Source of the DNA: Amphibalanus amphitrite
Taxonomy: Eukaryota; Arthropoda; Thecostraca; Balanomorpha; Balanidae
DNA: 64,000 bases
Assembly: GCF_019059575.1 (NCBI RefSeq)
Contig: NW_024882206.1
Coordinates: 199,001 to 263,000, forward strand
Reading direction: 5' to 3'
Part shown: piece after piece, positions 5,200-43,618 of the stretch
Position numbering within the stretch: the stretch's first letter is position 1
How the letters are laid out: every line of letters starts with the position of its first letter
Notes under the pieces: model-generated
The model's database searches: none
Seen by the model: the letters and a program-made list of their open reading frames with translations, nothing else
What the model was told of the DNA's origin: nothing
Made by a program: the position numbers and the translations under genes

Positions 5200-5879
5200 C
5201 ACGGACACGCATATTTACGTCTGGACAACGAGTTGCGGCCTGGCGTATTTACAAATTGCAACCGAGCTCCGCCGTAGGGTATTTTATTTCCGCCGTAGTG
5301 TATTTCATTTGGGGTATTTTCTACCATACATCTGCCTGAGCTTGGGGTAATTGCAATTTGTCGGCGACGTTAAAAAATGATGCACCTTTTTTCGCAGTAT
5401 AGGTTATTGCATGTGCATATTTTTGCCTTTTGGTTGCGCTTTTCCCTCGCTCGTATAGGGGGAGGAGTTGAACGGACCCCATCGGTTTTTCGTGAGTAAC
5501 TCGCGTAAAAACAGTCCGATCGCGACGAAACTTTCAATACCCCTAATTTTATCGATTTTACATCTACCCTGAAAATTTCATGACCCTGACCCAAATCACC
5601 TTTGACCTGTGACCTATTTCTCGAGACCATGTTTGGCCCGAATCGCGATTCGGCGTATGTCGGCTCGCATTAGCCGCGCGTTTGCAGTCTTTACGTGGTT
5701 TCAAGCGTTGAAACATGTGATATGATGCTGGTCCCATGCATTAGGGTGGGTATCAAGGTCACCTGAAGGTCAGGTCAGCTCAATGACCTTTGATGACCTC
5801 GGCTCACTTTTTCGAGTTTTACATGTTTCTAGGCTAGTTTTTGGAGCTGATTTCGAATTTAGCAACCATTTGAACATTA

Positions 5880-7416
5880 CAGGGGGTGTAACGAAATTAT
5901 CCGGACACCTTTCTTCCCGCTGTAATTAAAAAGCAAAACATTCTGGTACTTTTTCTTTTAACTGAGCATGTAGCCACCTTTCATAAAAACACAGTGGCGA
6001 ATGTTCTGGAGCATTTCAGCCACTGGATTCTCCAGCACATTAGCTTTGATGCGGACCAACGCCCTCTAAACCTGTGCCTGCGGTTGGGCGGTGCTTGTGA
6101 CGGGCGTCTCTTCAGTCACCTGCTGAACAAGAGCCCACAGGTTTTCGATTGAATTGGGATCGCGACTTTTTCCAAGTCATAAGCGTTAGCCCAGGATGAT
6201 TGAAGGTTCTATCGGCATCACTTCCCGTTCTTTTAGGGACTTTTAAGTAGCGCGCCGCCCCGCATGAAGACAGCGTGGCTTGAATCAGGCACCAGCGCGC
6301 GTTCAGACTTCAGAAGCCGAGTCCTCCTATACCGTCTGGTTGAGCGTCTCCAACTATTCATTGGCCAGTATGTGGCTCCGGTAATACTTGACGTTGGTGG
6401 CGGTATTTTATGACACCATGTCCTATTGGAGCATCGCTAGGCAGCTGATCATGCTCCAATTCTGAATATTGTCCGGATGTTTGACGGCGGCGAAGGCCAG
6501 CAAGTTCGAGCGGCTGGCCGCCCATACATGGCCGATTTGACGGTTCAAAGGATAATACAGCTCGAACGGCTACCCATCCAACCAGACCACCTCACCCTTA
6601 TCTTTCTTCAACCACTTGGACGCGATCTGGCGTGAGGCGAAAGGTGGTGAACTGGTTATTTTCCCGTCAGTTTCGTTGTATTTTTTTTCAGTTTGAAGGG
6701 CACTAGAACCAAGTTAGAGGGCGGGTAGCAGTAAACCATGATATGGGATCTCCTATTATCTGACTTGGTAAGAATTCGAGTCAATATGCGGATTGATTGG
6801 TGCCGTTTTCTTGCCGCTATCTTGATGACTCTCCTCACCACTTGACAAAGGGCGGCTTTTGTGGTCGCGACCGGGCTGAGTCTGCCATAGGCGGCGGAAC
6901 GGGGAGGGCACCGGGGCACCGTGCCCCCCTTTGATTTTGGCATTTTAACATTAGCCCTATGGGCGTTGCATGGAAAGAATGGGACCAAAAGTCGGCAGTG
7001 CCCCCCCCCCTTTAATTGAAGGCGTTCCGCCGCTACTGGAGTCTGCCATCGAAGTCCCAGCTTATTACGCCTCAGGCAGATGTGCAATTGGCTGCTGCTG
7101 ATGTCCAGCTGCTGCCAGACCAGCTCCTGGCTCATGACGCCGTGGATGCCGCCATGCAATTTTACCACGAAAGGAGAGATTGTATCCCTTTCTCGCAACT
7201 GCCTTGGACGAAATCTACCATGTGAACCCGTCTGTGAATCGACTCCTACTCAGAGCAACAGTCACATGACAAGGTCAGGTCACTGCTGAGTTGAAAAACC
7301 AATAGCAGAGTCATGTATTCATCCAATATTCCCACTTCTAACATCAGAAAGGATTAGGAAACTGCAGAAACAGATATGGCGAAAAATAGATGCCCGGATA
7401 ATTTCGTTACACCCTG
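5880..7416 (-). mobile_element. Degenerate Tc1/mariner-like element
   Basis: The inverted ends (CAGGGGGTGTAACGAAATTATCCGG on the left, shortened by two G on the right) are flanked by TA at 5878-5879 and 7417-7418; an unoccupied copy of the same site is present at about 105-115. On the minus strand, broken frames read as pieces of a DDE transposase, including a WLKKDKGEVVWLDG segment near 6570-6620 and a RDPNSIENLWALVQQ segment near 6130-6175, like the SPDLNPIENLW motif of Tc1/mariner transposases. Stops and frameshifts separate them, and the MITE at 6889-7041 interrupts the N-terminal part. The copy is dead. A 3-prime fragment of the same insertion is in U' at 43143-43618, so it entered before U was duplicated. 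Confidence 0.8.
6889..7041. mobile_element. hAT-like MITE inside the Tc1/mariner-like copy
   Basis: The 153-bp insert is flanked by the 8-bp duplication TCTGCCAT (6881-6888 and 7042-7049). GCGGAACG near the left end pairs with CGTTCCGC near the right end. The interior resembles the MITE at 25806-25953, with poly-C/poly-G flanks around a TTTTAACATTA(G/C) core. Confidence 0.65.
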
Positions 7417-7436
7417 TACTGAAGTAGTTTTGGTGC

Positions 7437-7456
7437 CTTCGTAACATGTTACGAAG
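7437..7456. repeat. Perfect 20-bp palindrome
   Basis: CTTCGTAACATGTTACGAAG is its own reverse complement. The related copy at 129-148 has one mismatch. It lies in the AGGTCA-rich family just outside the Tc1/mariner-like insertion; any protein binding is unknown. Confidence 0.8.
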
Positions 7457-8089
7457 CTGTCACGAGAAAAAATAGCGTTCTGCCCCTCCAACTTTTGCTG
7501 ATTTGTAGAACTTCGTTGCTTAGCAAACCACTATGTTGTTCGCATTGAGGAGCTTTGAAATGTCTGTGTAATGCAAAATGTTAGTTCTGTAATTAAAAGA
7601 ATTGATTCAGTGTTGCACATAATCTAACTTAACAACCGAGCATTGCAGGTTTGACGGCTTTTTGCCCCACCACCTTCCCTGGAAAAGCTCCACCCTTGCA
7701 TATGGGGCAAAACATAAGGGACAAAAACACAAAACAAGACAGATAAAAAACAAAACAAAATGAACTCAATACCTAATGAAGTTCAGTCTGGAGCAAAAAC
7801 ATAGGTAATAGGTATCTATGTCAAATTAGAATGAAAGATTAAATTAAAATCAACCTGACCAGGCCTTACGGTCTGACCTGGTCCTAACCGCCTTACTTCA
7901 CACTTAACCCAATTCAACCTAAGCTACCACAACACCTCCAGAGGTATCTTCCTGGAAAATTACGCCCAGGGAGGTGTCCAACTTATTGGAATATTACCAT
8001 AATTGTTTTTGTTGTTTTTGTTTTGTTGTTTTTGCGTAGGCCCTCTGCGCATTAGGTACCTATTGTGTACACTGCCATGTGCACCTTAA

Positions 8090-8757
8090 ACGCAGTTCAC
8101 ACTTGCCCGTAAGGTCTGCCGGTGACGGGCCCGACACCGTCAAAACGGCCGAATCTGACGGAGCGACGGCCGTCAGGTCGACGGGCATGTGTGAACCGGC
8201 AGCGTTTGACGGTCGGCAACAGCTGACTGCGCCGGCGCCGGACCTGACGGCCGTCGCTTTGGAAAGTTCAGCAATGTTCAACTTTTGACGGTGACGGGCC
8301 CGTCGGTTTGAATATCTGCGTGTTGGAGGAAGAGGAAAAGGAACGTTCTCATGCAGCATTAAGCTTATATGCATTTTTAAGAGTATTAATACCAATTTCC
8401 ATCCATTTTTTAGATGAAAGTGTTTATTACGGCACGATATCTTGAGATTCGATCCCTGATTTAAATCAGCGAACCTATGTGTCTTTCATTTAAATAAAAT
8501 TTCAGCAATATTTGACATAAAAATGTAAATGCGTGGTATTTTATTTCTGTAATTCAAATAATATTTTAACCTCTCGGCCTCCCCATCCCCTTCCCCCATC
8601 TGCGTCAATCTCGAAAATGGTGCGCCATTTCTGTCACAATATATGGCAGCCAATGGGAGCTACCAAATCTCAACTTTCGTTCGACGGGCTGCCGGCCGTC
8701 AGGTCGACGGTGACGGGCCCGACACCGACAGACTGACGGTCAAGTGTGAACTGCGTT
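8090..8757. mobile_element. TTAA-flanked MITE with CGCAGTTCACACTTG ends
   Basis: The inverted ends ACGCAGTTCACACTTG and CAAGTGTGAACTGCGT are bordered by TTAA. The inverted copy U' near 33035 reads straight through the site with a single TTTA, confirming an insertion. Subterminal GACGGGCCCGACACCG and CCGTCAGGTCGACGG motifs recur at both ends. There is no coding sequence. The TTAA target suggests piggyBac or Kolobok mobilisation. Confidence 0.7.
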
Positions 8758-10439
8758 TTAAGGGAAAAAAGTGACTGGTGGTACATGACAAAGGGTTGTG
8801 CAACTGTGAAGTTCATGCCCTTGGTCTTGCTGGTGCCAAATGCCTATAGCTATAGCAGGTTCAGTGAGGATTGTAGACATGCTACATACACTGTGCATTG
8901 AAGATATTGGCACAAAGTTCATCCATAATTACTATGCTTAATACCTAATGTAAGAAGCAACATAAATACCCAGATGATACAGCTCTCTGGTCAACATCAC
9001 ACAAATTTATTGACATATTTTGCAGGTACATATTTACATTCATAACAAATACTTTTGATTTGATTCAATAATTAGGTGCTAGTAAGCTTGTAAATGACCA
9101 TATATTAAATCATAAAAGAACCTTCTCGTGGCATTCATCAGTCATCACACACCTTTTTACCGAACAAGTACCTATCTAGTATCTACCATGCAATGATTCT
9201 AAATTTTGTCCGCAATCCACCTATAGCTCAATCAACTGACAAATTGAAATTGACATACCCTAACAAAACCTAGAACTGTACATAAGAAAAATGCAATACT
9301 ACAACAACCAGGGTTGGCAAAGTTGCCGCTGATTGGTGTCTCCAGACACTGAGAAATTTTGTACTCAGTACTCATTACTGGAAAATAATGATTATTTTGT
9401 TCTCACTTTTCAGGAAATCTACAAGACATCACCAATGAAAACAGCAGTAATACCTAATATAAAGAACAAAGAAAAGAAGCCTTAGCACCGATATGAAGAG
9501 TAATAGGATTTACCGTTCCTTGATATTTCATTTTTTGAGCGGTATGATGCTGAAGTGTGAATGCATTGTAATGAGTGGTGACTGGTGACTCTGACTTGTG
9601 AAATGTTAATTGAAATCAAATACAAATATATTCATAACTGGAAGCTACGTTGCATGAATAAAGAGGTTTTAAATGGTCATAAAAGTAATCACTCAGTATG
9701 GCGTAGGTACCAGCCAAATAATCCATGAATTATAATTGGTAGGTAGGAACCTCAATCTGAATCACAAATGAGCAATGGCAGACGATATCTAAGTTAGATA
9801 AAATCACCAGTAGTACCAGCCACTGAATTAGTAGGTTAAAACAAGAATAAGCATTAGCAACCATCAAAACTTACCAAAAGTAAAAACTTGCAATCACTAG
9901 CATTAGACGGAGCCTACCACACACTATAAAATTACCATTACCACGCGTCCACAAAACTTTCGAGACAAATACCTAAGATCTGCGTCGTAAATGCCTTGGT
10001 GAGATTTCGCCTAGTTGGCAAAATTGACGTTCTTGGGGTCGGAGCCTAAAACCGAGCAATTTTGAGAGTTCATCTTATTCAACAAATTATGAATGTTTAG
10101 ACAGTAACATGTAACAAAATTGTCAAAAATCAAATCTTCAAAGCCCTAACTAATCATCTTTGGCATTTTATACCCTTTGAAAAAGAAATTGTAGCAAAAT
10201 TTTCGGTTTTAAAATATCTATTTTTTCACGGTCACAACTTATTCAAACTCCAAAAAAATTTTGAAAACGAAATTAGTTTTTTTTATTTTTTTTACTGAAA
10301 TTCAAAGCAAATTCTTTGTAGATTTAGCACACGGCGTTTTGATGTCATTGTATGCATGGTTGATGAGAAAACGTATACTGAGATGGGATCTTCAAATATT
10401 TTTGCGCCTCTCCAAATGAAGTCCTTAATTTAGCAGCCG

Positions 10440-10685
10440 CATCTAGCTTGTATCAGGGCATGAGCCCGCGACCGCCAGGGAAAGAGCGAGGCGAGTACAA
10501 GTAAAGGGAGAGGACAGAGGGTGGGGAGCCTGAGGCTCGGCCCGAGGCCAAAGCCCGAGGATATGGAAGCATGGAAGCGACGCAAACAAGCCGGCGCCGG
10601 GGGAGGGACACCCCCGCCAGCGAGGGTTCTTTGTCTTGCTGCCGGCGTCGCTCGACCATCATTGCTGAGTGATTTGTTCATTGTT
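10440..10685 (+). other. GC-rich candidate leader exon with a GTAAGT donor
   Basis: This GC-rich island in AT-rich surroundings ends at a consensus donor (GTAAGT at 10686). It could be the first non-coding exon of the transposase-USP gene, or its promoter. An ATG at 10563 opens a frame of 41 codons to the donor in phase 0, so a coding first exon is an alternative. Transcript data would decide. Confidence 0.3.
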
Positions 10686-11253
10686 GTAAGTACCTAACTT
10701 ACCTTGCAGTATGTAGGATATAGGTACCTACGATTTATGAAATCGAAAAGTTGCAATCTCATCCAGTTCGGGTTGGTGTGCAATGTGCTTACATGTAAAC
10801 CTCGCGACCTGAGAAGGCTAGGATTTGCATGATTTTTAATTCTGACATGTCTTTGTGTTTGTTGTCTGTAATGGTGAACACAGAACGGACATCGGCATCA
10901 TGATCCATGGGCATCGTTTTCTATAGGCTTGGTAGGGCGCCAGTGCTACCAATAACAATAATTTCAGAATTTTAACATTGACATTAATCTTATGACAGTG
11001 CATGGCAATTGGCAAGAATGGCTTTGCTAGACGCTATCCTAAAATTAATAATTAATCTTGCGTACAAATTTGAAAAGTGATGTGATGCCCATGCCATGCT
11101 ATCTAGTATCTTTGTGTTACTTTATGCCAGACTTACCAAACCAAAACATTCAGGACCACAACCAGTGCTCTTACGCCCTCCCACCCACCCTGTGTTTATA
11201 GGGCTACAGATGCAGGGCAAGGTGGCAGCCCAACAACCTCAGCATCAGCAGTA

Positions 11254-11265
11254 ATGAGTCAAAAC
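11254..11265 (+). other. Candidate start exon of the transposase-USP gene
   Basis: ATG AGT CAA AAC is followed by GTAAGT at 11266. It ends in phase 0, and the long frame resumes in phase 0 directly after the acceptor CAG at 13287-13289. Joining them gives a protein starting MSQN then VHDDERP. An upstream ATG after a possible acceptor (CTACAG) opens a 12-codon frame ending in TAATG, overlapping this start. The intron, about 2 kb, contains the piggyBac-like MITE. Confidence 0.45.
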
Positions 11266-12179
11266 GTAAGTTTGTTTCCATGATTCTGATAAGCATTATT
11301 GACTTTTATGAATGCTATTAGACATTTCCATAGCAAAATGAAATACAAATATGTGGGTCTCAAATTTTTTTCCTCTTTGGATGTCCGGAATTGTATGTTC
11401 TCAATTTCTTGGTGTTTTTGTTTATCCAGATAGACTACTGGATCAAGTGTCATTGTTTGTGTTGTGAAAATCAGTAGGTACCTACCTTTTGGTGCTGCTT
11501 TTGTAGACGATAATGAAATAGGTACCACTGGGCACCACTCGGTATGAAATTGAGGTGCACTTAATGCTTTTATCAGTTTTATGTGAAATTTGAAAGTTGT
11601 TTAGTCTCACATAAATAAGATTTTACTTCACTTTTCCCTTGCAGAGAATCCCATGTGAAATCATCATTGAGTTGTAAGTGATTGCATGTGATGGTAATGA
11701 TGCCATGATAATTGGGCTTTTTATGATGGTTGGTGGCAGGTTGACATTTGACAGCTGGTGTCAGGTTTGTGTTTCTACTTTATAGCTGGGCTGCAAACAT
11801 TTATTTGATGCATGTGCTTACTCACTCCTTAAAGTGACCATCCCACCTTAACATAAGATTTGAGTTGAGACAGTGTTTCAAAATTTGTTGATTTGGGTGG
11901 GAAGCAACATCCAAATGAAAATTATTTTGCACTCTCACCTACAGTTTTTAAGAACAATTTTGCACTCTCAATTAAACAGAAAAAAGTATTTGCGTGGATG
12001 GTCGCTGTTTATCCTGCATTAACACATTTGTATAGAAATGAATGTTATCAATATTAATTATTTGTTCATTCTTTTTGGGCCTATCTGACCAGCGGTTTTC
12101 CACCCTCATCCCCGTTTTTTTTAGAGGAATTTCTAACTTCCTATCCCTTTAAATATTTTGATATGAAAACTAGCTTTAA

Positions 12180-13074
12180 CCCTCGCCCGCACATGCCATT
12201 TTCCCATCCTAGAACGCACATGGGGGGGTGTGGTTGCCACCCCCCCCCCCCCCGCGCCATTTCGTTCCTGTTGGAGATAGAGCTTCACGGTAAAGATCAA
12301 AAAGATTCTTTGGGAAGAGACGAATCCAATGATACCCAGTTTTACCTTCTCAGGTCAGTCATTGACCTTCCAGGTCAGGTCAAACTAAAAAATGTTGCTG
12401 TTTTGGGTCACCGTTGGATATCAAGTGCGCTGCTTATCAAATACCGATGACGATGCTGTTTTCTGGTGCCAGGCCAGCTAGAACCTCTTTGTCACACTAT
12501 CCGACCAGGTTTTTGCTGCTGAGGTCATTTCAGGTCAAGTTAGGTCAAGGTCAATTATATGTGTTGTATGTCTGTGTGTGTCTGTGTGTATACTGATGTG
12601 TGCACCGATTGTTTAGGTGTCCATATTACATGAGATCATGAAATGAGAAGCTTTTACCAAAAATACAGTCAAAGAAACTTAACAAAAGTAAATTCAGCTT
12701 GCCTAAAACGCAATATTCTTAGATGACCTAGGTTGACCTTGACCCTGACCTTGACATCTGACATCGTCGAACAACATGTTTCATGATAGGTGGGAGGTAA
12801 GACTGGCAAAAAAGGCCGAAATCAAGGTGTCAAAAGCTCACAAGACCCATAGCCAACGCAAGATATTGGGTATTTGTCATTTGGGTCATGACATGACCTG
12901 AAGAACAAGGTCATATCTCCGAAACCAAAAACCACAGAAACTTGAAATTTTCAGTGGACATCAAGAAAGGATAGGGGAGCAGCTACAGGCTTCTAGCTCT
13001 AAAAATGTTGAGTGCAGAGCAGAAAAACTACCTGGGGGGGGGGGGGGTGGCAACCCCCCATGTGCGGGCGAGGG
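12180..13074. mobile_element. piggyBac-like MITE in the first intron
   Basis: The ends CCCTCGCCCGCACATG and CATGTGCGGGCGAGGG are bordered by TTAA (12176-12179 and 13075-13078). The CCC termini and TTAA target match piggyBac elements. Poly-C and poly-G runs sit just inside both ends, and the interior is rich in AGGTCA direct and inverted half-sites. No transposase is present. Confidence 0.75.
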
Positions 13075-13289
13075 TTAAGGGGCATTGTTGTGGTTCTCTG
13101 CTTATTCGACGCTGAGCAGAGGTTGTTGAGTAGACACCACCCCTGCAGTGCCCTGCCCCCCCCCCCACCACCAAACCTTTACGCAGTTGGTTGACCCCCC
13201 CCCCCCATTAGGTGTATATAAAACATTAGTGGATAAGGGGTAAGTGTTAACTTTCTTTTGCAGTAAAACAAAGTACTTTTTCTTTTCAG

Positions 13290-16200
13290 GTGCATGACGA
13301 TGAACGTCCGAGACCTGTCGTCAAGAGTAAGGCTAGTAGGAAGTCTTCTGAACGAATACGGTTCGCTACACGCTCACATGTTAAAGGAACAGTAACATGT
13401 CATTTATGCCCTAAGTCAATTTCAACAAAGAATTTCCCACGTCATGTGAAATCGAAACATAGAGAAGCTTACTTAGATGCTATGAGAAAAAATCCCCGTG
13501 GTGTTACTGGCTATCTCATAGAGAAGGCTATTGTAAAATCTCGTTCTACAAGGGAAAACGATGACAATGAGCCAGTCACTGTCATTATCACTGACAACGA
13601 GCCTGACATTACTGCCAATGCCGAAACACCGTTGGGACAGGGATCCCCTAGTGTACTGATACATACTATCGCAAGTGAGAGAAACGATGTCATGACAACT
13701 GAGAGAGACTCCGTTCAATCATCATACCACGAGCACCCATCTCCGGATCGAATTAATCAAGTCTGTGATAATTATCCCGGCCGCACGAGCCCCCCCGTAA
13801 CTGTGACAGATACCACACAAGAACGGGACACAGCGCAGAGCACGTCGACACCGACCGTACGGCTGCAGCAGGCTGAGTGTATAAGTGAAGGTGGTGCTCA
13901 GCAGCCAGGTGTCATGGGTGACGATTTGGTTGAATCCCAGATGTTACGAGACATACTGTGTGAAATTCGTATGCTATCTAGGAAAATCGATAGTCACGAC
14001 TCTGAATTTGTTTCGCGCGCCTCTCTCAGGAAAGAGATGACTGAGCTTGAGAAAAAAATTTCTCCAGGAGCAGCAAAGGCACGAAGTGCTGACACTGCCA
14101 AACAGTTTCCATGGCTTCTCACTCGGGGTACAGGCTCAGAGGAATTAGGATTTTGTTCAACGTGCATTGCTAATAAGGCAACTGTTTCGGCCATGCGAGG
14201 CCAGCATAAAGCACTGCGTTGGACAACGGAAGGCGTTTCGCTAAAAAAGAATAGACTTGAAATTATCGCTAGGCATGCAGCCACTGCTGTTCATAAGGCA
14301 TGCATGCAGGTGCCTGAAGAGCGTGACAGAATACAAAGCCTGTTTGGTTTACAGTGCGAGAAGCATAAACGGCTAGATGATAATCTGACAAGGGACATGC
14401 TGATGGCTGCATATCATAACCTGCTATTGGGGCATTCTTATGCTGCATTTGAGTCACTTATGAATAGATTGTTCTCAAATATGATGTCTACAAAAGAAAC
14501 ATTCTCACACATTGATTGGAACACAAGTCGTAAGGCTGCTGCCTCTGCAATAGACGTTATATATGAAGTGCTTCGAAAGTCACATTGCAGTTTTTTAAAA
14601 TCTGTAAATCCGACAACAGGACGTCTAAGACACTTCCACATTAGTGCTGACAAAGTCACGGCTGAAAGAACGTCAAGACAGGTAGTTAATATAAGGTTTA
14701 TTGACGTGGATGGTGCTCCCAAGGTAACAAACTTGTCAGTCGATGTTATCAGAAATAGGGCTTCGGAGGCTGACGCAGCGGAAGGTGTCACGCACGAGTC
14801 GGACGCTGTTGGCTGTCTAGAACACATATGTGATGTCCTGACAAAATCAGTCCTAGATCTTTCGCCTCGGAGTGTCGGTACAATGTGCTTCTCCATGAGC
14901 TCTGATAAAGAAGCTGTTTATGCAGGACAACAGTCCGGTGTAGCGGTAAGATGGCGTGAAAGATTCAATAACAACGCATTTCTGCATTTGCTTGACAGAG
15001 CCCATAAGGTAGAATTATGGACTGACAGTGTTTTTAGAAAAGACGAATTTCAGTGGGCAAGAGTCTTCATCAGATCAAATGTTGATAAAGTGGTAGGGGC
15101 AATTAATCGGTCATCAAAACTTATGCGATTGGCTCGAAGGATCGATCCCACATTTACTGTTCTCTATAGAAATGTTGACACGAGATTTATTGAGTACACT
15201 GTACTAGCGATTAATTCAATTATCAAACAGTATGGGAATGTAGTTATGACGATAGAGAATGATGGGCGCCGTGATAACGATCCAGATAAACTTCAAGCCC
15301 TAGATGTCTTGTGCGATATCGATTTCATTCCTACCGCCCTGGTGCTGTTATATGTCTTAGATATTGTCAAGAAAGTCAGTAAAGCTGCACAGAAAGCTAC
15401 TTATTCTTTGTGGGATGATCGTAAAGCGATAGATGCGTGTCGTCTTGCTCTCCAAGAAGCTTGCGACGGCAAATCCAATCCTCTGATACGGAAACACGGT
15501 AAAGAGTTCCGTAAAGGACGGTTCAACGGATTCGACTTCGAAAACGTGAGCTTATTAGTCACTTCTCATAAACGGAGTACTAGAATCGGTAGCAGTTACC
15601 ATTCAACACTCAAAGACGCCCTCAAACGAGCTATGGAAAGGCAGGCTCAGCTAGCCCAAGCTCTTCTTGATGAACTTGACGCCTTTTTGGACGTTACAGA
15701 GGTTGAAGATAAAATGATGAAAATTTTCGATATTCCCACATTTCCTTTGCACGACAAGTTGGCTTTGAAACAATTCAGGAATAAGGAGCTTCGCGAAGTA
15801 GTCAAGTTCTTCTGTACTCACAGTAACATACGTTTTCCAGGGAAACATAGTTCCATGTGCCGGCACGAAAAAGAATGCAGGTGCGTTGAAGACCAGTATA
15901 TCGTTTTTAAGAACCGCGTATCTGGTCAAATTCAGTTACGTGCTGAATGGTATGCAGACGACAATGGTGTAAAGATATTGTCGGTCGGATTCATTCTACA
16001 TGATTTTCTAAGGCCCTCGAGTCAGCTGCACGTCAGTATTCCAGATGTTATTGAATTGATGGAAATAGCAGTGTTGCTATGTCGATCACAGTCTGATACG
16101 GAAAGAACAGGTAAATTAGTCAAGGATCTTTCGGAAAACAGATTCGGTGGCAAGTTTAATGAACTGAAACCGCTGGAGAAGGACAGGTGTGCTAAAGAAG

Positions 16201-17198
16201 TTTACATCCGTGAGCTAGGACTTGAATTACATGATCTACCAATTGATGCCATTAAAGAGGAGTGGTCAAAGTTTCATTATGGTGTACTTAAAAAACGAGG
16301 CAAGAAAACCCCTGCTTACCTTCGTAAGCATCAACCATCGAAAGTGAAATTTATGACATCTTACCATTTGGACCAACAGCCCAGAGAAGCAGGTACCACG
16401 TCAGATGATGTTACGCAAGAGGATCGTAGCGTGGGCTCCCCCGTGCTGACATCAGATAACAATGAAGGTCTTGCGGGTGATAGTACAGTGAACACAGATT
16501 CGAATCTCCGTACAGATGTTGTCCACGCTTCTAGTGATGTACACGCTCATAGTTCTTCAGGTGAAGATCATATGTCGCAGAGCATTGGTGAAACTGCCTC
16601 TGAACATGCTGATGTTGCGTCAGATGATAATGCTATGGAAGTTGATGATTTTGTTCAGGCTCGAGCGCAAACTGACAAAGAGGTGTCATTTGAACAAAGT
16701 GAACCACAGCAACTACGATCTCAACGACAGGTAGATGTTAATGACTCAGATAACGACCCAGATGATTTAGATTCGCCAATTGCATCTGGGCATTCAGTGG
16801 AACTAGCAGCAGTGACAAAGTGGAAGCAGAGTTCGATCCTCACGTTTATAAAAAGCAAGCAGAACGTTTCTAAACCCCCGAAAGAGCCTGAAGCTGCCAA
16901 ATCACCACTGATTGATTTAAGGCATGAGAAGGAGCACAACGAAATAGAGCTTCGTGATAAGCGCAATGAAAGTGGACGTAGTGTTGGATCACCGACTTCC
17001 CAGGCCCGGCCATCGGAAATGTTTGCTGTTGAAGACGACACACGTTTTTCCGAGATGAGTACTACTAATATGTCTCCAGGTGGCGATGACAATGATAATG
17101 CTGAACAGCAGGGATGCGGAGCCGGAGCCGGAGTCGGAGCCGGAGCCGCCGGAGCCGGCATATTTTGCCCGGAGCCGGAGCCGGAGCCGGAGCCGTGA
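13290..17198 (+). CDS. hAT-family transposase, N-terminal part of a transposase-USP fusion, C-terminus now supplied by a MITE
   Basis: This long open frame starts at the acceptor CAG|GTG (13287-13290) and needs an upstream start, probably the exon at 11254. Residues 37-57 form a C-x2-C-x11-H-x4-H zinc finger, as in BED/C2H2 DNA-binding ends of hAT transposases. An RNase-H-like core follows: Asp454 in a SADKVT context, Asp539 in FSMSSDKEAVYAG, then SGVAVRW and DRAHKVELWTD, which parallels the SGVA...HCxAHRLEL block of ZNF862/DUF4371-type hAT proteins. Residues about 917-975 (IPDVIELMEIAVLL then QSDTER) resemble the hATC dimerisation region. An acidic, Ser/Asp-rich linker occupies about 1030-1270. 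At 17109 the frame enters a MITE and ends after 29 foreign residues, Gly/Ala then Pro-Glu repeats. Before that insertion it ran on into the USP domain at 17975. The catalytic Glu is not assigned with certainty. Confidence 0.75.
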   Translation: MHDDERPRPVVKSKASRKSSERIRFATRSHVKGTVTCHLCPKSISTKNFPRHVKSKHREAYLDAMRKNPRGVTGYLIEKAIVKSRSTRENDDNEPVTVIITDNEPDITANAETPLGQGSPSVLIHTIASERNDVMTTERDSVQSSYHEHPSPDRINQVCDNYPGRTSPPVTVTDTTQERDTAQSTSTPTVRLQQAECISEGGAQQPGVMGDDLVESQMLRDILCEIRMLSRKIDSHDSEFVSRASLRKEMTELEKKISPGAAKARSADTAKQFPWLLTRGTGSEELGFCSTCIANKATVSAMRGQHKALRWTTEGVSLKKNRLEIIARHAATAVHKACMQVPEERDRIQSLFGLQCEKHKRLDDNLTRDMLMAAYHNLLLGHSYAAFESLMNRLFSNMMSTKETFSHIDWNTSRKAAASAIDVIYEVLRKSHCSFLKSVNPTTGRLRHFHISADKVTAERTSRQVVNIRFIDVDGAPKVTNLSVDVIRNRASEADAAEGVTHESDAVGCLEHICDVLTKSVLDLSPRSVGTMCFSMSSDKEAVYAGQQSGVAVRWRERFNNNAFLHLLDRAHKVELWTDSVFRKDEFQWARVFIRSNVDKVVGAINRSSKLMRLARRIDPTFTVLYRNVDTRFIEYTVLAINSIIKQYGNVVMTIENDGRRDNDPDKLQALDVLCDIDFIPTALVLLYVLDIVKKVSKAAQKATYSLWDDRKAIDACRLALQEACDGKSNPLIRKHGKEFRKGRFNGFDFENVSLLVTSHKRSTRIGSSYHSTLKDALKRAMERQAQLAQALLDELDAFLDVTEVEDKMMKIFDIPTFPLHDKLALKQFRNKELREVVKFFCTHSNIRFPGKHSSMCRHEKECRCVEDQYIVFKNRVSGQIQLRAEWYADDNGVKILSVGFILHDFLRPSSQLHVSIPDVIELMEIAVLLCRSQSDTERTGKLVKDLSENRFGGKFNELKPLEKDRCAKEVYIRELGLELHDLPIDAIKEEWSKFHYGVLKKRGKKTPAYLRKHQPSKVKFMTSYHLDQQPREAGTTSDDVTQEDRSVGSPVLTSDNNEGLAGDSTVNTDSNLRTDVVHASSDVHAHSSSGEDHMSQSIGETASEHADVASDDNAMEVDDFVQARAQTDKEVSFEQSEPQQLRSQRQVDVNDSDNDPDDLDSPIASGHSVELAAVTKWKQSSILTFIKSKQNVSKPPKEPEAAKSPLIDLRHEKEHNEIELRDKRNESGRSVGSPTSQARPSEMFAVEDDTRFSEMSTTNMSPGGDDNDNAEQQGCGAGAGVGAGAAGAGIFCPEPEPEPEP

Positions 17199-17966
17199 AA
17201 CAATATAGCCCGGAGCCGGAGCCGGAGCCGGAGCCGCCAAAAAAGGGGGCGACTCCGGCTCCTTTTTATTTTTTGAAGAGGAAAAAAAATAATTGACCTA
17301 GTTCGGTTTGACAGTACAAGGCAAAACATATGGTACTTACGTCATGGGCCATCAAGTGAATGGCCCCAGTATCCCACAGTACGCAAACAACTTCCTGTTT
17401 GCTCTCCCCCCCCCCCCCACGTCTACTGCATCCCCAGAACATGAGGACCAGTCATCAGGTGACGGCCATTGTTTTCAAACCAGTGCAGTGGACTGCGACT
17501 CCCAGCACCGTCTCATCCCACACACCCCCCACCCCTCACCCCCCAATGCAGCCGAGACGGGTGTCAGCTTACGATGGTTCACTGAACTCCGATTCGCGGC
17601 GACTGCGTTTCCAATGCCATCGCTTCCTAGCCCTTTGTTCTGCCAGTTCTCTCCGAGGCTCCGAGGTGCGTTTGCGCGGGGCCGGGGACGCGGTGAGCCG
17701 GTCATGGCAAAGAGTAACGCGTATAACCAATCCAATTTTTCTTCCACCCGTATTTAATTGATTGCGTAGGGGATGTACTGAGTCGGAGCCGGAGCCGCCG
17801 GAGCCGGAGCCGCCGGAGCCGGACCATTTTACTCGGAGCCGGAGCCGGAGCCGGAGCCGCCATAACATTTCACCCGGAGCCGGAGCCGGAGCCGGAGCCG
17901 ATTTTTTTCTCCGGAGCCGGAGCCGGAGCCGGAGCCGTCTGAAATTTCCACGGCTCCGCATCCCTG
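17109..17966. mobile_element. hAT-like MITE splitting the transposase-USP gene
   Basis: The 16-bp ends CAGGGATGCGGAGCCG are inverted at both termini, with the 8-bp duplication CTGAACAG at 17101-17108 and 17967-17974. It holds blocks of GGAGCC hexamers in both orientations' reading (Glu-Pro or Gly-Ala or Ser-Arg repeats in the three frames). Removing it with one duplication copy restores a continuous frame (GCT GAA CAG then TAT TCC TTT), which is strong evidence that the two reading frames were once one gene. Confidence 0.85.
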
Positions 17967-17974
17967 CTGAACAG

Positions 17975-18832
17975 TATTCCTTTTCGGATGCCGTTCTTTT
18001 TCATGCGCAACAAACTCCCAGGGGAATGATCAACCGCCGTAACGACTGCTATCTTATAACTGTTCTCCAAATTCTTCCTTTGTTGAGGATAAAAAGAGGT
18101 GGCTCGGGCCATGATCATTATGCAAATTTATTGATAAACAATTTGCGTGATTGCTATAATTCCGAAATATGTTCCGATCCAGGAACCATCAAGGGTATCC
18201 TTGCAAAAAAGTTTGAGATATTCCATAATGACGAACAACAGGACTCGTCGGAGGCGCTAGAATGCATTTTTAAGGTATTCCTAGAAGGCGGAATGAATAT
18301 CGACAGCGCTAGAATAGATACAACAACAACATTGAAGTGCAGACATTGCTCATACTCATCAGACAAACATGTAAATCAGCATCAGTTACATCTTTGGTGC
18401 AATAAAAGAAGTACCGTGTATGAATGTTTGAGTGATTACTGCTCAGCAACAATTTTAGACGACTTCAGTTGTGGCAACGATGAATGTTCTGGGCGTGGAG
18501 GGGCACACACGACATCCATCTCTTGTGAGCCTGAAGTCATGGTACTGAATATGCAACGTCCGGATTATGACAGGCGTCAAAAAATTGCACTTGATTGTCC
18601 TCTAGAGGGACTTCGTATACCAGGCGGAAATAAAGCTTATCATTTGGTAGGTGCCATATTACATTGGGGAACGAGGGAGCATGGACATTACCAATGCCTG
18701 ATAAGAAGAGGCGAGTTTTTTTTCAAATGTGATGACGAAAAAGTGAGCAATGTTAATCAAGAAACAGTTAAGGAACTACTTTCTTATAACGCATGCATCC
18801 TAATCTATCGTATGATGCAGTCTTGGCGCTGA
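17975..18832 (+). CDS. Ubiquitin-specific protease (C19) domain, C-terminal part of the split fusion
   Basis: 285 codons with the landmarks of a USP catalytic core. Cys box: GMINRRNDCYLITVLQIL, with catalytic Cys at 18047-18049. QQD box: NDEQQDSSEALECIF near 18227-18270. Zinc-binding pairs: CRHC near 18340 and CGNDEC near 18472. His box: REHGHYQCLIRRG, with His at 18686-18688, then KCDDEKV with Asp at 18731-18736. The known role of the family is to cleave ubiquitin or ubiquitin-like proteins from substrates. At about 285 residues it is near the minimum for a USP core. It has no start of its own in a normal context; a frame running in from the MITE begins at about 17762. Whether it is now expressed separately is unknown. 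All catalytic residues being kept suggests selection until recently. Confidence 0.85.
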   Translation, partial: YSFSDAVLFHAQQTPRGMINRRNDCYLITVLQILPLLRIKRGGSGHDHYANLLINNLRDCYNSEICSDPGTIKGILAKKFEIFHNDEQQDSSEALECIFKVFLEGGMNIDSARIDTTTTLKCRHCSYSSDKHVNQHQLHLWCNKRSTVYECLSDYCSATILDDFSCGNDECSGRGGAHTTSISCEPEVMVLNMQRPDYDRRQKIALDCPLEGLRIPGGNKAYHLVGAILHWGTREHGHYQCLIRRGEFFFKCDDEKVSNVNQETVKELLSYNACILIYRMMQSWR

Positions 18833-18924
18833 CAGGAAGTGCAAACATACCTCCTAGCAGTGACATATTACCGGTATTTGTCATTCGGGATCCGAGTCAG
18901 CAGAAATGGCCGTTACTGTCAAGT

Positions 18925-19440
18925 AACTACATCCGGATCGGACGTTAGTACTTACGACTGCATTTTTCTACAATACCCATGACGTATTATCGTCTGGCGG
19001 GTGTAGAATACATCGGGATCAGACGTGAATAATAATGACAGCTTCAGTGTCTACAATACCCATGACGTATAATCGTCTGGCGGGCGTAGACTACGTCTGG
19101 ATCAGACGTGAATAATCATGACAGCTTCAGTGTCTACAATACCCATGACGTATAATCGTCTGGCGGGCGTAGACTACGTCTGGATCAGACGTGAATAATC
19201 ATGACAGCTTCAGTGTCTACAATACCCATGACGTATAATCGTCTGGCGGGCGTAGAATACATCGGGATCGGACGTGAATAATCATAACAGCTTCAGTATC
19301 CAGTTCCACAATACCCATGACGTATAATCGTCTTGCGGGCGTAGACTACGTCTGGATCAGACGTGAATAATCATGACAGTTTCAGTATCTACAATACCCA
19401 TGACGTATTATCGTCTTGCGGGCGTAGAATACATCCGAAT
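18925..19440. repeat. Tandem array of six 83-bp repeats with internal dyads
   Basis: Copies of CTACAATACCCATGACGTA start at 18968, 19051, 19134, 19217, 19307 and 19389, a period of 83 bp (one unit 90). Each unit carries a dyad of the type ACGTCTGGATCAGACGT. The array lies between the USP stop and the SGNH-like gene and may hold transposase- or regulator-binding sites; that function is inferred. A GT/TG simple tract follows at 19460-19500. Confidence 0.8.
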
Positions 19441-20245
19441 AAGATGTGCATTGTCATACTCGTGTGTGTGTCTTGTTTGTGTGTGTGTTGTGTACATGCT
19501 GGTGTTGTATGCTGGAAAGGGCGGTGGCAGATTGGAGGAGGGCATGTGAGTGATGCATGCAGGTGCGTTACTGTACTTCACTTGTTAGGGTCATGATGCT
19601 GTGTCACTTTCAGCATGTCTGCCTGTTCGTGTGAATGTGTGTGGCGTAATGTGTTACCCTTGTTCACTGCATTGGTCATTGTTCATTCGTATTGTCCGTC
19701 TTTTGGACGGGCTCTAGACGTAGCTTTTGCGTTAATTTTTTTTTTTTAGTAACGGTGCAGCAAATGGGCATCAATAATTTCTCTACGGAATAAGAATAAG
19801 CTGCGTCTAGTGCGGGCAGCGTGGTACATGAATGTATCTCTTGGAGCAACCTCCACAGATATACCGCTTTCATCGCCCTTGATAGGTACATTCATGTATC
19901 ATTCCATCCGGCTCCTCGCGCCGCTGCCTGGGGTGGCTGATTTTGCCCGCCACGCTGAGAGATGGAAACATGTGAGGAAACGTTTTTGATGTGCCTCAAT
20001 CCGCCGACATCTCCCCTTCAACGGCTAAAAAATAACAAATGCGATAAGTATGATCTATGACTGACTCTACTGCACTTGGCGAAGAATACTGAGTAAAACC
20101 TTAACCATGTGCTATGGTATGATTATCGATTCCCTCATCCCAATGTAGCATGAACCTTAACACCAGACCCGATATTCCTCGACGTGTTTCTAACTGATTA
20201 TTTTCCAGAGGTTTCAACCTTTGTGTCTTGTTTTGACGTTTCCAG

Positions 20246-21791
20246 GACGGGGGGCGGCCTCGGGATCGGTCGCTGGTTCTGCGTACCGGCAGAGAGCCCT
20301 ACCGGAGCCGGCGCGGAGGCCACCGGCCAACACGGCAGCCGGCGCTGTGCGCGGAGGTGCGGGTGGCCGTGTTTGGTAACTCACACGCCATCCGCGCCTT
20401 CGTGCACCCGATCGCCGAGGACGCTTCCCGGCACATCGGGCGGCACCGTCTCGACGTCAAGTGGGTGCGGCCGGACGGCGGCACGATCGGTGGCCTCGGT
20501 GGCGGCTCCAGCGAGGACTGGCGTCGTCTGGACGCCGCCACCCATGCTCTGGACGGGGTCTGGCCCTCCTTCGCAGTCATCTGCGTTGGCGGGCCGGCCC
20601 TCGTCCCGAGGCGGGGTGACCGCGTCCAGGGAGCACCAGTGCCTCTGCTCGAGGACGCCGCCGGGGCCGCCGCTCGCGTCGTCTCCGGCATGGAGCACTG
20701 GCTCAGCACCCTGGAGCTGGTGATCCCAGGCACCCGCGCCGTCATCCTAAGCGTCCTGCCGGAGAGGGACCTGTCGGCGGAGGCCCTGGACATGTTCCGG
20801 GGCCTCAGCCTGACCCTCTGGCAGGTCGCCAGGCAGCGCGGGGCAGCCTTCCTGGACGTCGAGGCGGTCCTGCGCCGGGATGTCGCCGGCATGGCTCCAA
20901 GCTCCGCCACCGCCACCCCGGACCCGGCCGTGCTCCAGGGTGTCACGCCCGGCCACGCCTCCTCCCGCCCCGCCACCGACGACACGGCCCCGGGGCGCGG
21001 CACCAGCCGAGCGGCCCTCCAAGCCGCCATAGGCCACCTACAGCTGGTGAGTGTCGAAGAAGTGATGAAGTCTCAGTCATTTATGCATTGTGAATTAAAA
21101 AAGAAAGGAATATAATGTACCGAATATGTGCAGTGCAATGTCACACAAATTTGAAAAAAAAACCGGAATAGATGAAATGTATGAAATGTATGCATGAAAT
21201 GTATTTATGTATGTATGAAATGTAATTTATGTAAATGTATGTATGCCATGAAATGTATGTGCTTGTCGTACTTATCAGTAAGCTTGCTGACAATGTTCAA
21301 TATTTTCCACTTACCATAACATATTTAAGTTTTGATTTAGCACTGTTTATGTGGGCGGTGGGCCGCAAATTAACGTAGTGGGATATTGCTTTTGACTTTT
21401 CCATGAGTGCATAAAGTTTCTGTATTCTGCAAGTTAAAAACCAACCCTGTTCTGTCATCTACACCAGGAGGCTGAGGAGGGCCTGCTACCCAACCGGCTA
21501 CTCACGGCCTCGCGGGCCGTGGCGTCCGTCGCCACCGAGGTCCTGGAGGAGGCGGAGAGGGCGGCGAGGGAGGTGGCAGCGTGCCGAGCTGCCCTCGCCG
21601 AGGCCCAGCGCGCGCCGGTCCCGGACGTCGCCTGGGCCACGGGGTGGGTTCCCGGACGCCCGCCGCCGCCGGACGCCAACGCCGCTCCACCGGTCTCGGC
21701 GTTGTATGATGATGACGGCGTCCACCTGACGCCGTCAGCATACAGCGCCATCAGGCGCGAGCTGGTGAGGCTGTGCCTCACCAGCGAGTAG
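20246..21791 (+). CDS. SGNH/GDSL hydrolase-like protein, two visible exons, 5-prime end missing
   Basis: Exon 20246-21046 (acceptor TTTCCAG, donor GTGAGT) and exon 21468-21791 (acceptor CACCAG, stop TAG) join in phase 0, giving about 374 residues. The first has VAVFGNSHAIRAF, with a block-I-like G-x-S-H Ser at 20381; the second ends with DDDGVHLTPSAYSAIRREL, the D-x-x-H block V of SGNH hydrolases (Asp 21714, His 21723). The usual G-x-N-D block III is not conserved (GGPAL). The family contains esterases and lipases; the substrate here is unknown. There is no ATG before the GNSH motif in this frame, so an upstream exon must exist. Its base composition is far richer in GC than the transposase frame and resembles the host genes at 56-63 kb, which suggests capture from the host. 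AATAAA at 22867 is a possible poly-A signal. Confidence 0.6.
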
Positions 21792-21904
21792 GCCAGCGCA
21801 GTGCTGGCCTGTAGCCACGTGTCAAGTGTTTAGCTTTATGTTTATTTAATCTTTCTCTAGCTTTATGTAGTCCAGATATGGTCCATTCTGCTGATATCAG
21901 GGAT

Positions 21905-22166
21905 TAGAGATGTCAATCAGATACCAATTTTTTGGTATAACGATACCAACCGATACCGACTTGGTATTTGGTATTTCAATCCAAATGTGTTTGGTATTTT
22001 TGTTTGTATCATGGATCCTCGCTAATGTGAAAGGGGCTGTGAATTTGGTTAAAAGGTTGTATTTCCATCATATTTCCTAGTTGGTTCGGTCTCAGTATTT
22101 TCCTACGGTTTTGGTTGGTATTTGGTTTGGTATCGGTATTCAGATTTTCTGTAACTGACATCACTA
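21905..22166. mobile_element. 262-bp hAT-like MITE downstream of the SGNH-like gene
   Basis: The ends TAGAGATGTCA and TGACATCACTA are inverted with one mismatch, flanked by the 8-bp duplication TCAGGGAT (21897-21904 and 22167-22174). The interior is full of GGTAT/ATACC motifs. Confidence 0.8.
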
Positions 22167-22600
22167 TCAGGGATACCTTCTAGAACAGATGGTCTTCATG
22201 CTAGTCCTTGGTTCCTTATGACAAGTACAAATCATATGAGGCGAAGGCTGTGATGAGTAGTTGATGTTCGTCATATTTTCTCCAGGAGCGTAGGTAAACA
22301 TATTTCTGCTCAGGCGTATTAATTTGGGATCTAAGTAGTTTCTCCTGCGTTTTCTTTTTTATAATCATAACGTGATCTTCTAATGTCGTGTTATGGGCGC
22401 CGATGACCACTGCAGTCCGGACGCCCAAAAACCTCAAACCATCGCCGTCATCATCATCATCATCATCATCATGGCTTCTTATTCTCAGTGGCATTTATGA
22501 TGGGACCTTTCGTTCAGCTGATGGCTGACCGCCCGGTGACGACCGTTTGTGTAGTGTTGTGCGACTTTGTGAGCCGGCGGTGGCTGTTTTTTATGGTGTA

Positions 22601-22784
22601 AAGGTTGAAACAGACTCTCCGCAGTCAGGAAATCGCATGCGAGATCCTATTCAAATGCATTAAATCACGCTCGCATCAATCGTACGCACCTCCCGCATAC
22701 GAATGATGCGGGAAGGATTTTAATGCATTTGAATAGGCTCTCGCGTGCGATTTCCTGACTGCGGAAAGAGTCTGTTTCAGCTTT
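22601..22784. mobile_element. Palindromic TA-flanked MITE
   Basis: Long inverted arms (GAAACAGACTCTCCGCAGTCAG and its near-perfect inverse) surround a short loop, with TA on both sides. The 2-bp TA target suggests Tc1/mariner mobilisation. It is non-coding. Confidence 0.6.
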
Positions 22785-23975
22785 TATTGAGCTTAGCTGC
22801 CCGACGGCGACCGTTTTTGTAGTAGGTACACTGTGGCTGGCTGCCCGATGGCGACCTTTTTTGCTAATAAAGATAAAAAAGAGTTCGTGTCTCAGTATAT
22901 ATTATTATTCGCAATATATACCAGCAGAAGCAACGCAAAGAAGCAATGATTGAAACACGGATCCATCAGGGTACGACGCGATCGTGAGCACTGGCGCAGC
23001 GCTGCCTCGCGACTGGACGGCAGCTATCTTATGTCGGCCATAGTTACATAAATCAACCATAGAGTATTACGAAAACTCGGCGTTCGTTGATTAGCTGGAT
23101 TAAATGTTATAAAGGGTCGTCTTGGTCAGAAGTCCGCATTCGTGGCTCTCAGTCTCTTCTCTTGTTTTCCTGGCTAGATGGCGCTGGTCGGCAGTCTCGT
23201 GAGGAATAGTATAGATGTCGCCCGAAGTCAATGCCATGTTCTTTTCTGAAAGAGAGGCAAAGGCTGTCAAGCGTTCGGTGATTAAAGCTAAACAAGTTTA
23301 TCAAGTTTCCATGGAAACCGAAAGCGCTTTTTATGTTAGTGAGCGCTACTAGCGCGCAGTGAAAGAGAACCCATACCCCTCATGCTCCTCAATGGCGCAT
23401 TGGCCGCTGTTCAGTGAAGGCGGTGGAACTACAGGCAAAGTGCTCTTCAAAAGGCAGGCGCGTGGTGTTGGTGTGAGGCGCGGGCACGTAAGGCGTATTG
23501 GTCGTGTGAAATCAATCAACCACTGCACGTAATTGCCGGTAGGTGCAGTGCTACGTGCGAAACGTCGACGATCAGAAATGTATTCTTTGTGTGTGTGTGT
23601 GTAACAAAGAGCAACTTGTTCTGAATTGATTCACGTGAGGCTTCGGCACCTGCTGAGTGCTCGCTGCTCGCTCACTTGCGGACGATTGACTGCTGCCTAC
23701 TGAGGAATATCTATTTTTATTATTAATCAAATACCTTGTTTTCGCTATCATGTTCATCCAGCTGACCAACTTGTCTTTTATGGGCAAATTCTCAGTAGTG
23801 TTGTCAGTAGTGTTTGCAGTGCTGAATTTGTCCTTTTTTATCATACTTAGGTACATCACTTTGAATCATCACTTTTAATATTTGATATGCCGTGACTGCA
23901 TCATGAAATTTTGTACTCACTTCCCCGAAAATTTGTACTCAGACACCAAGAAAAAAAAAGAGAATTCCCACCCTG
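22785..23975. other. Right subterminal region of the 14.7-kb element
   Basis: No gene is supported. It holds duplicated GCCCGA(C/T)GGCGACC motifs near 22800 and 22845, a GT tract at 23588-23602 and the right end with TTTGTACTCA-like motifs at 23910-23940. Confidence 0.4.
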
Positions 23976-24427
23976 ACAACAACTATGAAGTTCTGAAGTT
24001 ATTCTCACATGCTGGAATGTTGAAACTCCACTTTTGTCGTCCATTTCCAAGTTTGATGATTGAGCCATCATAATATTGAACTGTTTTCGCTCTTCAGTCA
24101 TAAGCTTTTGCACAAATCTTGAATTTTTACACATCATCTTGAACCATGCTCCAATCTTTCCAACAAGGTACTATGGAACATCAAAGCAATTTTGATTTGT
24201 TACAGCAGCTTCAGATCATGATAGGCTTGAAGGTTCAGTTTGTTACACCATTTGCCAGACAAACCTCTACAAAATGTGTATCAATTCCCAAACTAAGCAA
24301 TTGATTATATCAGTATTTGCAGTTTCCACACAATGATTCATAATATTATTCGATTTTTATATCAAGAAACTCAAATAATCCACAAATTGTTATTGAAACA
24401 CTCCCTCTTCAAGAGCTCACAGCAATA

Positions 24428-43142: not shown

Positions 43143-43618
43143 ATTGGAGGCGCTCAACCAGACGGCATAGGAGGGCACGGTTTCTGAACGCGCACTGATG
43201 TCTGATTCAAGCCGCGCTGTCTTCATGCGGGGCAGCGCGCTACTTAGAAGTCCCTAAAAGAACGGGAAGTGATGCCGATAGAACCTTCGATCATTCTGGG
43301 CTAACGCTTATGACTTGGAAAAAGTCGCGATCCCAATTCAATCGAAAACCTGTGGGCTCTTGTTCAGCAGGAGGTGTATGAAGAGCCACCCGCCATAAGC
43401 ACTGCTCAACCGCAGGCACAGGTTTAAACGGCGTTGGCCCGCATTAAAGCCAGTGTGCTGGAGAATCCATAGGCTGAAATGCTCCAGAACATTCGCCACT
43501 GTGTTTTTATGAAAGGCGGCTACAACTACAAGCTCAGTTAAAAGAAAAAGTACCAGATTGTTTTGCTTTTTAAATACAGCGGGAAGAAAGGTGTCCGGAT
43601 AATTTCGTTACACCCCCT
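43143..43618 (+). pseudogene. 3-prime fragment of a Tc1/mariner-like element
   Basis: It matches the inverse of 5880-6375 and ends with the same terminal repeat and TA. Translation in pieces gives the SRDPNSIENLWALVQQ motif of the DDE transposase, with stops and shifts. It is an old insertion shared with U and truncated here. Confidence 0.75.

Follow-up and report, generated by a model that had tools for sequence, protein, structure and literature searches.

The stretch of DNA considered here (hereafter the window) comprises 64,000 nucleotides of the genome of Amphibalanus amphitrite (GCF_019059575.1, NW_024882206.1, positions 199,001 to 263,000 of the forward strand) and harbors a mobile element whose transposase gene continues in frame into a ubiquitin-specific protease (USP) domain of the C19 family. 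The original prediction, made from the letters of the sequence, had placed a hAT transposase fused to such a domain at 13290-18832; the mobile element is larger than that interval and extends from 9309 to 23975. Searches were conducted in the assembly from which the window originates (807.55 Mb, 2,644 contigs), where the window corresponds to C709:199001-263000. The element and its fusion gene are composed of the following features, given in window coordinates (MITE, miniature inverted-repeat transposable element).

9301-9308, no strand: left target-site duplication, ACAACAAC
9309-23975, plus strand: whole mobile element, delimited by a left end common to six places, by the right end and duplications of three other copies, and by 12 paralogous empty sites
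9309-9322, plus strand: left terminus, CAGGGTTGGCAAAG, identical in C747, C431, C1445, C2292 and C433
9353-9367, plus strand: subterminal 15-mer, with a second copy at 23905-23919 (found by aligning right ends to the window with blastn)
11254-11265, plus strand: candidate first coding exon, ATGAGTCAAAAC followed by GTAAGT (MSQN, ATG at 11254), phase-compatible with the acceptor at 13288-13289
12176-13078, no strand: TTAA MITE with 20-bp perfect terminal repeats, in the presumed intron, inside stretches that L025, L026 and L027 have in common with the window
13290-16355, plus strand: transposase part, ending at KFM (16347-16355), the equivalent of the end of the related frames L051 and L052
16356-17108, plus strand: linker, acidic and rich in Ser, Thr and Pro
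17109-17966, no strand: 858-bp MITE with CGGAGC repeats and ends CAGGGATGCGGAG, its duplication CTGAACAG at 17101-17108 and 17967-17974
17975-18832, plus strand: C19/USP domain and stop codon (Pfam UCH, PDB sequence matches)
23962-23975, minus strand: right terminus, whose reverse complement starts CAGGGTGGGAATTC, eight of the first nine bases being those of the left end
23976-23983, no strand: right target-site duplication, ACAACAAC, directly after ...AATTCCCACCCTG

Ends and copies of the element

The window element has ends of the hAT type (CAGGGTTGG.../...CCCACCCTG). Its terminal inverted repeats are CAGGGTTGG and CAGGGTGGG, beyond which the ends are divergent; a 16-base stretch starting at 9353 recurs at 23927-23942 with one mismatch. 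When the window was scanned for inverted ends matching at 9 of 12 positions next to an 8-bp duplication, the element was not found, since agreement between its ends is limited to about nine bases; comparison with the copies brought it to light. Inverted repeats at 5239-6307 and 43183-44230 were considered as possible element ends and rejected, as they lie outside the block common to the copies.

When window positions 6300-10400 were searched against the assembly (best 40 of 3,078 candidates scored), five other contigs, C747, C431, C2292, C1445 and C433, exhibited 100% identity to the window from 9309 onward, the identity of C433 starting two bases earlier. Complete copies are present at at least four sites, each with a different perfect 8-bp duplication on both sides: the window itself (C709), C747 (CATTCACG, 203806 to 190002), C431 (TGGATTGG, 281031 to 295485) and C1445 (TATAGGTA, 131563 to 117644). 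The element measures 14,667 bp in the window, counting the MITE (858 bp) and the 8 bp added with it, and 13,805 bp in the MITE-free copy of C747. The window copy is inserted in a dispersed repeat, the right flank of which matches 39 other places in the assembly. For 12 of these a left-flank piece is listed as well, and each time it overlaps the right-flank piece by the 8-bp target and no more, so that each paralogous empty site holds a single target copy. Thus the fusion gene sits in a bona fide transposon. Probes taken 8-18 kb outside the ends of the copies in C747, C1445 and C431 gave no match to the window in six of six cases.

The four copies differ by 4-6 substitutions over 8,286-9,789 aligned bases (window 10374-21120), two of those in the comparison with L027 lying at a deletion edge. 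They share long stretches at 99.6-100% identity, except for insertions, deletions and the tandem-repeat region. Contig C1229, probably the other haplotype of the window's left flank, is 88-92% identical to that flank across the main pieces. Since the copies differ so little while this flank is only 88-92% identical, transposition of the element looks recent. That the four copies might be haplotigs of a single locus was rejected, given that their common part is the element with its own duplication and that C1229 is what matches the left flank. A segmental duplication or a host gene was also rejected, as flanks and duplications differ between copies.

A single reading frame for transposase and USP

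In the window, the plus-strand frame is open from 13251 to 17198, in agreement with the original claim of a transposase frame without stop to 17108, and the USP-bearing frame ends at 18832. The fusion is interrupted there by the 858-bp MITE, which has hAT-type ends and an 8-bp duplication (CTGAACAG on both sides) and is inserted in the transposon's own gene; this insert and its duplication had been correctly recognised. The MITE is absent at this point from the three other full copies. In C747, no discounting of an insert is needed to pass from transposase to C19 domain, since both lie in one uninterrupted frame, 1,571 codons long between its flanking stops, which encodes in order a zinc finger, the transposase, the acidic linker and a complete C19/USP domain (UCH at residues 1303-1564, Pfam E 2.5e-19). 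Thirteen of these codons precede the splice acceptor, leaving a coding part of about 1,560 residues, the size that had been proposed. C747 is the one uninterrupted copy found, and it has CATTCACG on both sides. The C431 copy retains a 1,174-aa frame with the later transposase part, the linker and the USP, and a 797-aa frame of C1445 joins transposase and USP parts; in both copies insertions or indels break the gene at points further upstream, the insertions of C1445 and C431 being different and located at other places. Two observations had been named in advance as contrary to a fusion, namely copies that stop before the USP and USPs that never adjoin this transposase. Neither corresponds to what was found: the four copies with both ends seen all carry the USP, and the four near-identical USPs among the 16 matches in the assembly belong to these copies.

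Within the transposase part, a zinc finger (CHLC...H...H) starts at 13398 and a second one at about 14154, followed by the core and a C-terminal conserved block. Translation would begin in a short spliced 5' exon. The start exon originally proposed, with its ATG at 11254, has the required phase but is one of two choices, as an ATG at 10563 is likewise phase-compatible with the acceptor at 13288-13289. The linker comprises 249 amino acids in the C747 frame, with 52 D/E versus 22 K/R. The 1,571-aa frame was also scanned for a PCNA-interacting protein (PIP) box with the relaxed pattern Q..[ILMV]..[FY][FYIWLM], shuffled sequences providing the expectation. The sole match, KWKQSSILTFIKSK, falls in the linker (0.18 expected); a strict match is absent from the frame, the second aromatic residue being missing, and the stretch is a weak lead towards PCNA.

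The USP domain

The translation of window 17969-18829 (P0002; stop codon 18830-18832) matches positions 2-254 of the 254 of the Pfam UCH model (E 4.7e-21, 76 bits, cut-off 23.9) and 16 distinct chains among PDB sequences at E <= 0.01, including USP12, USP8, Ubp6, USP46 and USP21, with USP12 as best match (E 2.4e-6). From the sequence and the alignment with USP12, its catalytic set consists of N22 (oxyanion), C27 (18047-18049), H240 in GHY and D255/D256, residues whose roles we take to be those generally attributed to them in USPs. A QQD box and Cys pairs are present as well, so that all the C19 boxes initially noticed (Cys, QQD, Cys pairs, His, Asp) are found in a full-length UCH domain. The fused enzyme would thus be predicted to remove ubiquitin.

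A protein search of the assembly with this domain scored 38 candidates and gave 16 matches, of which four show 100% identity (C709, which is the window, C747, C1445 and C431) and 12 are weaker and on other contigs; none of the 16 falls on a contig carrying the listed more distant relatives of the transposase. Set against the other USPs examined, the window USP shows 21-28% identity across most of the domain and up to 35% over stretches of 66-131 residues. As frame and catalytic residues are kept despite this low identity, the sequence argues for a USP maintained under long selection. The nearest intact USP among those compared belongs to a reverse-transcriptase frame (L028, 21% identical, E 4.8e-12), followed by L039 (25% over 161 columns), a frame possibly belonging to the host. 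A decaying USP with four stops in frame, 28% identical to the window's over 276 columns, occurs in L022 and L023 (C594 and C938), which are 99.9% identical to each other; no transposase was recognised beside it within the 3.4 kb examined.

Transposase relatives and superfamily assignment

The transposase protein search of the assembly yielded 38 matches. Two relatives, L051 (C595, from about residue 375) and L052 (C697, from about residue 250), are 31% identical to the window transposase and stop at KFMF(C), equivalent to window 16355. Because both end before the linker, linker and USP seem to have been added in the lineage of this element. A relative in C569 is 44% identical, and its frame seems to be broken by an insertion ahead of the region of interest, while one in C26 is 78% identical and covers only residues 1-585, with nine stops. 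Among the places sharing the left end, C2292 retains transposase residues 1-448 with one stop and has no USP match, and C433 has neither a transposase nor a USP match.

Typical traits of hAT elements are 8-bp duplications and short inverted ends starting with CAGGG or CAGNG, and their target preference is nTnnnnAn. The element exhibits CAGGG-type short inverted ends and 8-bp duplications in 4/4 copies and 12/12 checkable empty sites; the nTnnnnAn pattern is absent from the six flanking 8-mers. Pfam and NCBIfam searches of the window transposase gave no match, including none to Dimer_Tnp_hAT or a BED finger. For Dimer_Tnp_hAT, nothing was obtained at E <= 10 in P0001, L051 and L052, where the domain may lie below threshold, and none of the 149 matches listed for this profile in the assembly (best 150 of 554 candidates scored) falls on relatives of the transposase. 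No solved structure was found by PDB sequence searches with the window transposase or with a profile built from it, L051 and L052, and none of the 60 pattern matches of this profile in viral contigs was confirmed.

An indirect link to hAT elements comes from the zf-C17orf113 finger, which gave 14 matches in the assembly at E <= 0.1, two of them above the cut-off (C277, a relative of the transposase, and C570). Six of the 14 are N-terminal of relatives, namely that of C277 and those of C16, C915, C902, C595 and C697; the match of L052 (E 0.0028) is below the cut-off and the window protein has none. In C763 (frame of 983 aa) and C1223 (904 aa), matches at E 0.09, below the cut-off, share strand, frame length and place with a Dimer_Tnp_hAT match, and both domains probably lie in one frame. 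Moreover, we liken by eye the block SDKEAVYAGQQSGV...RAHKVEL to what we take to be the second-Asp region of ZMYM/DUF4371-type hATs. All three sequences keep Asp454, Asp539 and an ER pair (938-939) unchanged, and a role of these residues in the catalytic core is a guess. On account of the CAGGG ends, the 8-bp duplications and the indirect link through the zinc finger of the relatives, the element is very probably hAT-like, a label resting on these three traits. The original assignment to hAT therefore stands as far as ends and duplications are concerned, whereas the domains expected of it (Dimer_Tnp_hAT, BED) were not found with Pfam and the "core motifs" were a by-eye reading.

USP domains in reverse-transcriptase frames

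The UCH model gave at least 111 matches in the assembly, from 111 scored of 449 candidates. In eight of 11 long frames scanned, which were chosen by length and form a biased sample, an RVT_1 domain and a C-terminal UCH domain share one frame of 1,442-1,933 aa; the others are the hAT-like fusion, L040, which resembles host USP5/13, and L042, a part of an L032-type copy. The eight frames are as follows.

L028:1835-6160, minus strand
L032:1696-7494, plus strand
L033:2235-6908, minus strand
L034:2059-7176, minus strand
L035:2020-7308, minus strand
L036:867-6374, plus strand
L037:737-5266, plus strand
L038:1510-6291, minus strand

An N-terminal PHD finger is found in five of the eight, above the cut-off in two (L033 and L036). 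Frame lengths of 1,933 aa and 1,594 aa each occur at least five times among the UCH matches listed. A Cys/His knuckle and an RPDG...WD block seen by eye between reverse transcriptase and USP in some frames suggest that these are restriction-like-endonuclease retrotransposons. As Cys boxes vary between families and L032 carries a zf-UBP, the sequences suggest several captures of a USP by reverse-transcriptase elements. In C589, four USP matches of this type are arranged in tandem at 209373, 215362, 221350 and 227339, spaced about 5,989 bases apart (L028 corresponds to the first two).

Interpretation and rival explanations

Altogether, we consider the locus as a hAT-like cut-and-paste transposon, about 13.8 kb long and active in recent times, in which a linker and a complete USP have been added to the 3' end of the transposase gene, so that both would be made as one polypeptide, a reading to which we give a probability of roughly 0.78. 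Several observations weigh against it. The gene is disrupted in three of the four full copies, so that only the C747 copy was seen able to make the fusion, and the two further left-end places (C2292 and C433) show no USP. The relatives without USP indicate that the transposase family does not need this domain, and a related USP in L022/L023 has no recognisable transposase adjoining. Finally, no Pfam hAT model matches the transposase, L051 or L052, and the flanking 8-mers lack nTnnnnAn.

USPs remove ubiquitin, and hAT transposases work in multimeric form at the ends of their element. The USP would be carried along with the transposase to the ends and to the target, where it could strip ubiquitin off the transposase itself and its partners, and this large protein would thereby be spared removal by the proteasome or a segregase between synapsis and strand transfer. 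Such a self-protection is, of the mechanisms considered, the most likely, although we hold it with slightly less than even confidence; two arguments favour it, namely that a protein of about 1,560 residues has to remain bound while the element is excised and integrated, and that USPs also occur in this genome's reverse-transcriptase elements, whose chemistry is quite different. Second comes a USP that acts on chromatin or repair proteins carrying ubiquitin (H2A/H2B, PCNA), either at the donor or at the target site, which seems unlikely to be the main mechanism. More doubtful still is the version in which the USP acts mainly on ubiquitinated PCNA or histones and steers repair of the excision gap, being recruited by the PIP-box-like stretch: the only relaxed match does fall in the linker, with basic flanks like those of p21, but it is not a strict match, and none of the eight proteins joining reverse transcriptase and USP has such a stretch.

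The USP could instead be a passenger, a trapped gene piece whose frame joins the transposase by chance and which plays no role in transposition. The element does seem to carry a second gene, two relatives manage without a USP, and the gene is broken in most full copies; yet the join is in frame across 249 open codons, the USP is complete and has its catalytic residues, and a domain this far diverged would be expected to have decayed by drift had selection not acted on it, which leads us to regard a passenger as improbable. About as improbable, if not slightly more so, is that the element belongs to some other superfamily with 8-bp duplications, such as P, KDZ/Zisupton or an undescribed one. 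The absence of any hAT-model match and of nTnnnnAn would fit, but CAGGG...CCCTG ends would not, nor would the zf-C17orf113-like finger of the relatives, with one of its six matches above the cut-off and its link to Dimer_Tnp_hAT at C763 and C1223 sub-threshold, nor the by-eye likeness to ZMYM/DUF4371-type hATs. As for a host chimeric gene, in which a domesticated transposase next to a USP was multiplied by segmental duplication, the near-identical shared stretches, the presumed intron and the second gene might be called upon; sharp common ends, four different perfect duplications and 12 single-target empty sites make it hardly credible.

If the hAT-like transposon and several reverse-transcriptase families, which are unrelated mobile elements with different USP subtypes, have captured host USPs independently, a proposition for which we see even odds, these captures would point to a common host defence, or repair step, based on ubiquitin, which mobile elements have to get past and which could be tested with native enzymes. 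That reverse-transcriptase frames carry USPs too suggests that such a pressure is perhaps general in this host.

Comparison with known systems

Ginger1 elements make 4-bp duplications. The duplication here is 8 bp and Pfam finds no integrase match in the window transposase, so the element does not have the features of Ginger1. Ginger1 offers a close arrangement in that a cut-and-paste transposase carries a C-terminal cysteine protease (OTU or Ulp1) in the same protein, and its authors suggested that the ubiquitin pathway takes part in transposition (Bao, Kapitonov and Jurka 2010, PMC2836005). It differs by a Gypsy-integrase-like DDE core, by OTU or Ulp1 in place of C19/USP, and by a size of 2.6-7.1 kb versus about 13.8 kb here (PMC2836005). 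The Trichomonas vaginalis protein XP_001314237.1 likewise joins a DNA transposase to a C19 (USP-type) domain, but the transposase is of the transposase_11 family, the host is a protist, and the passages of the source that deal with it give no ends, copies or duplications (PMC2836005). Some Helitrons carry an OTU and some Mutator elements an Ulp1; the latter are similarly transposons with a protease for ubiquitin-like modifiers, though with a Mutator transposase and an Ulp1 (PMC2836005). Among retrotransposons, NeSL and Utopia-1_TSP encode an Ulp1-like cysteine protease, which is N-terminal, whereas the reverse-transcriptase frames described here have a C-terminal USP (PMC4640811).

The hATs with a zf-C17orf113-type finger share with the window element the CAGGG ends, the 8-bp duplication and, by eye, the second-Asp block, a similar finger being matched in relatives mostly below the cut-off, and differ in that two related frames of this genome stop before any USP. 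Neither a hAT element nor a retrotransposon with a USP was found among the best 20 or fewer matches listed per search of the open-access literature and, as far as these searches go, this is the first USP fusion in a hAT-like element and the first with proven recent copies. A single frame joining both activities, near-identical mapped copies and USP-less relatives in the same genome allow one to ask directly in an animal whether ubiquitin controls the life span of a transposase or the repair of its excision. The encoding of both in one frame suggests that the element may fight or exploit the protein-tagging system of its host.

Other features of the window

Downstream of the USP, the element carries tandem repeats and a presumed second gene.

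18967-19435, no strand: 83-bp tandem repeats, 5.6 units
20246-21046, plus strand: presumed exon of the second gene, SGNH-like by eye (VAVFGNSHA, ICVGG)
21468-21792, plus strand: presumed next exon, DDDGVHLTPSAY then stop

The block DGVHLTPSAY of this gene is also SGNH-like by eye, and its Pfam search gave nothing above the cut-off. The first exon has 21 matches in the genome, being 100% identical in the four copies and weaker (33-71%) in 17, of which the best by E-value is 46% identical. Elsewhere, the window contains an array with units of about 0.75-1 kb (33125-41480), a perfect inverted repeat of 2.5 kb (28241-30772 and 46741-49272) and a 680-aa frame at 56001-58043 with 69% GC that is DEAD-box helicase-like by eye.

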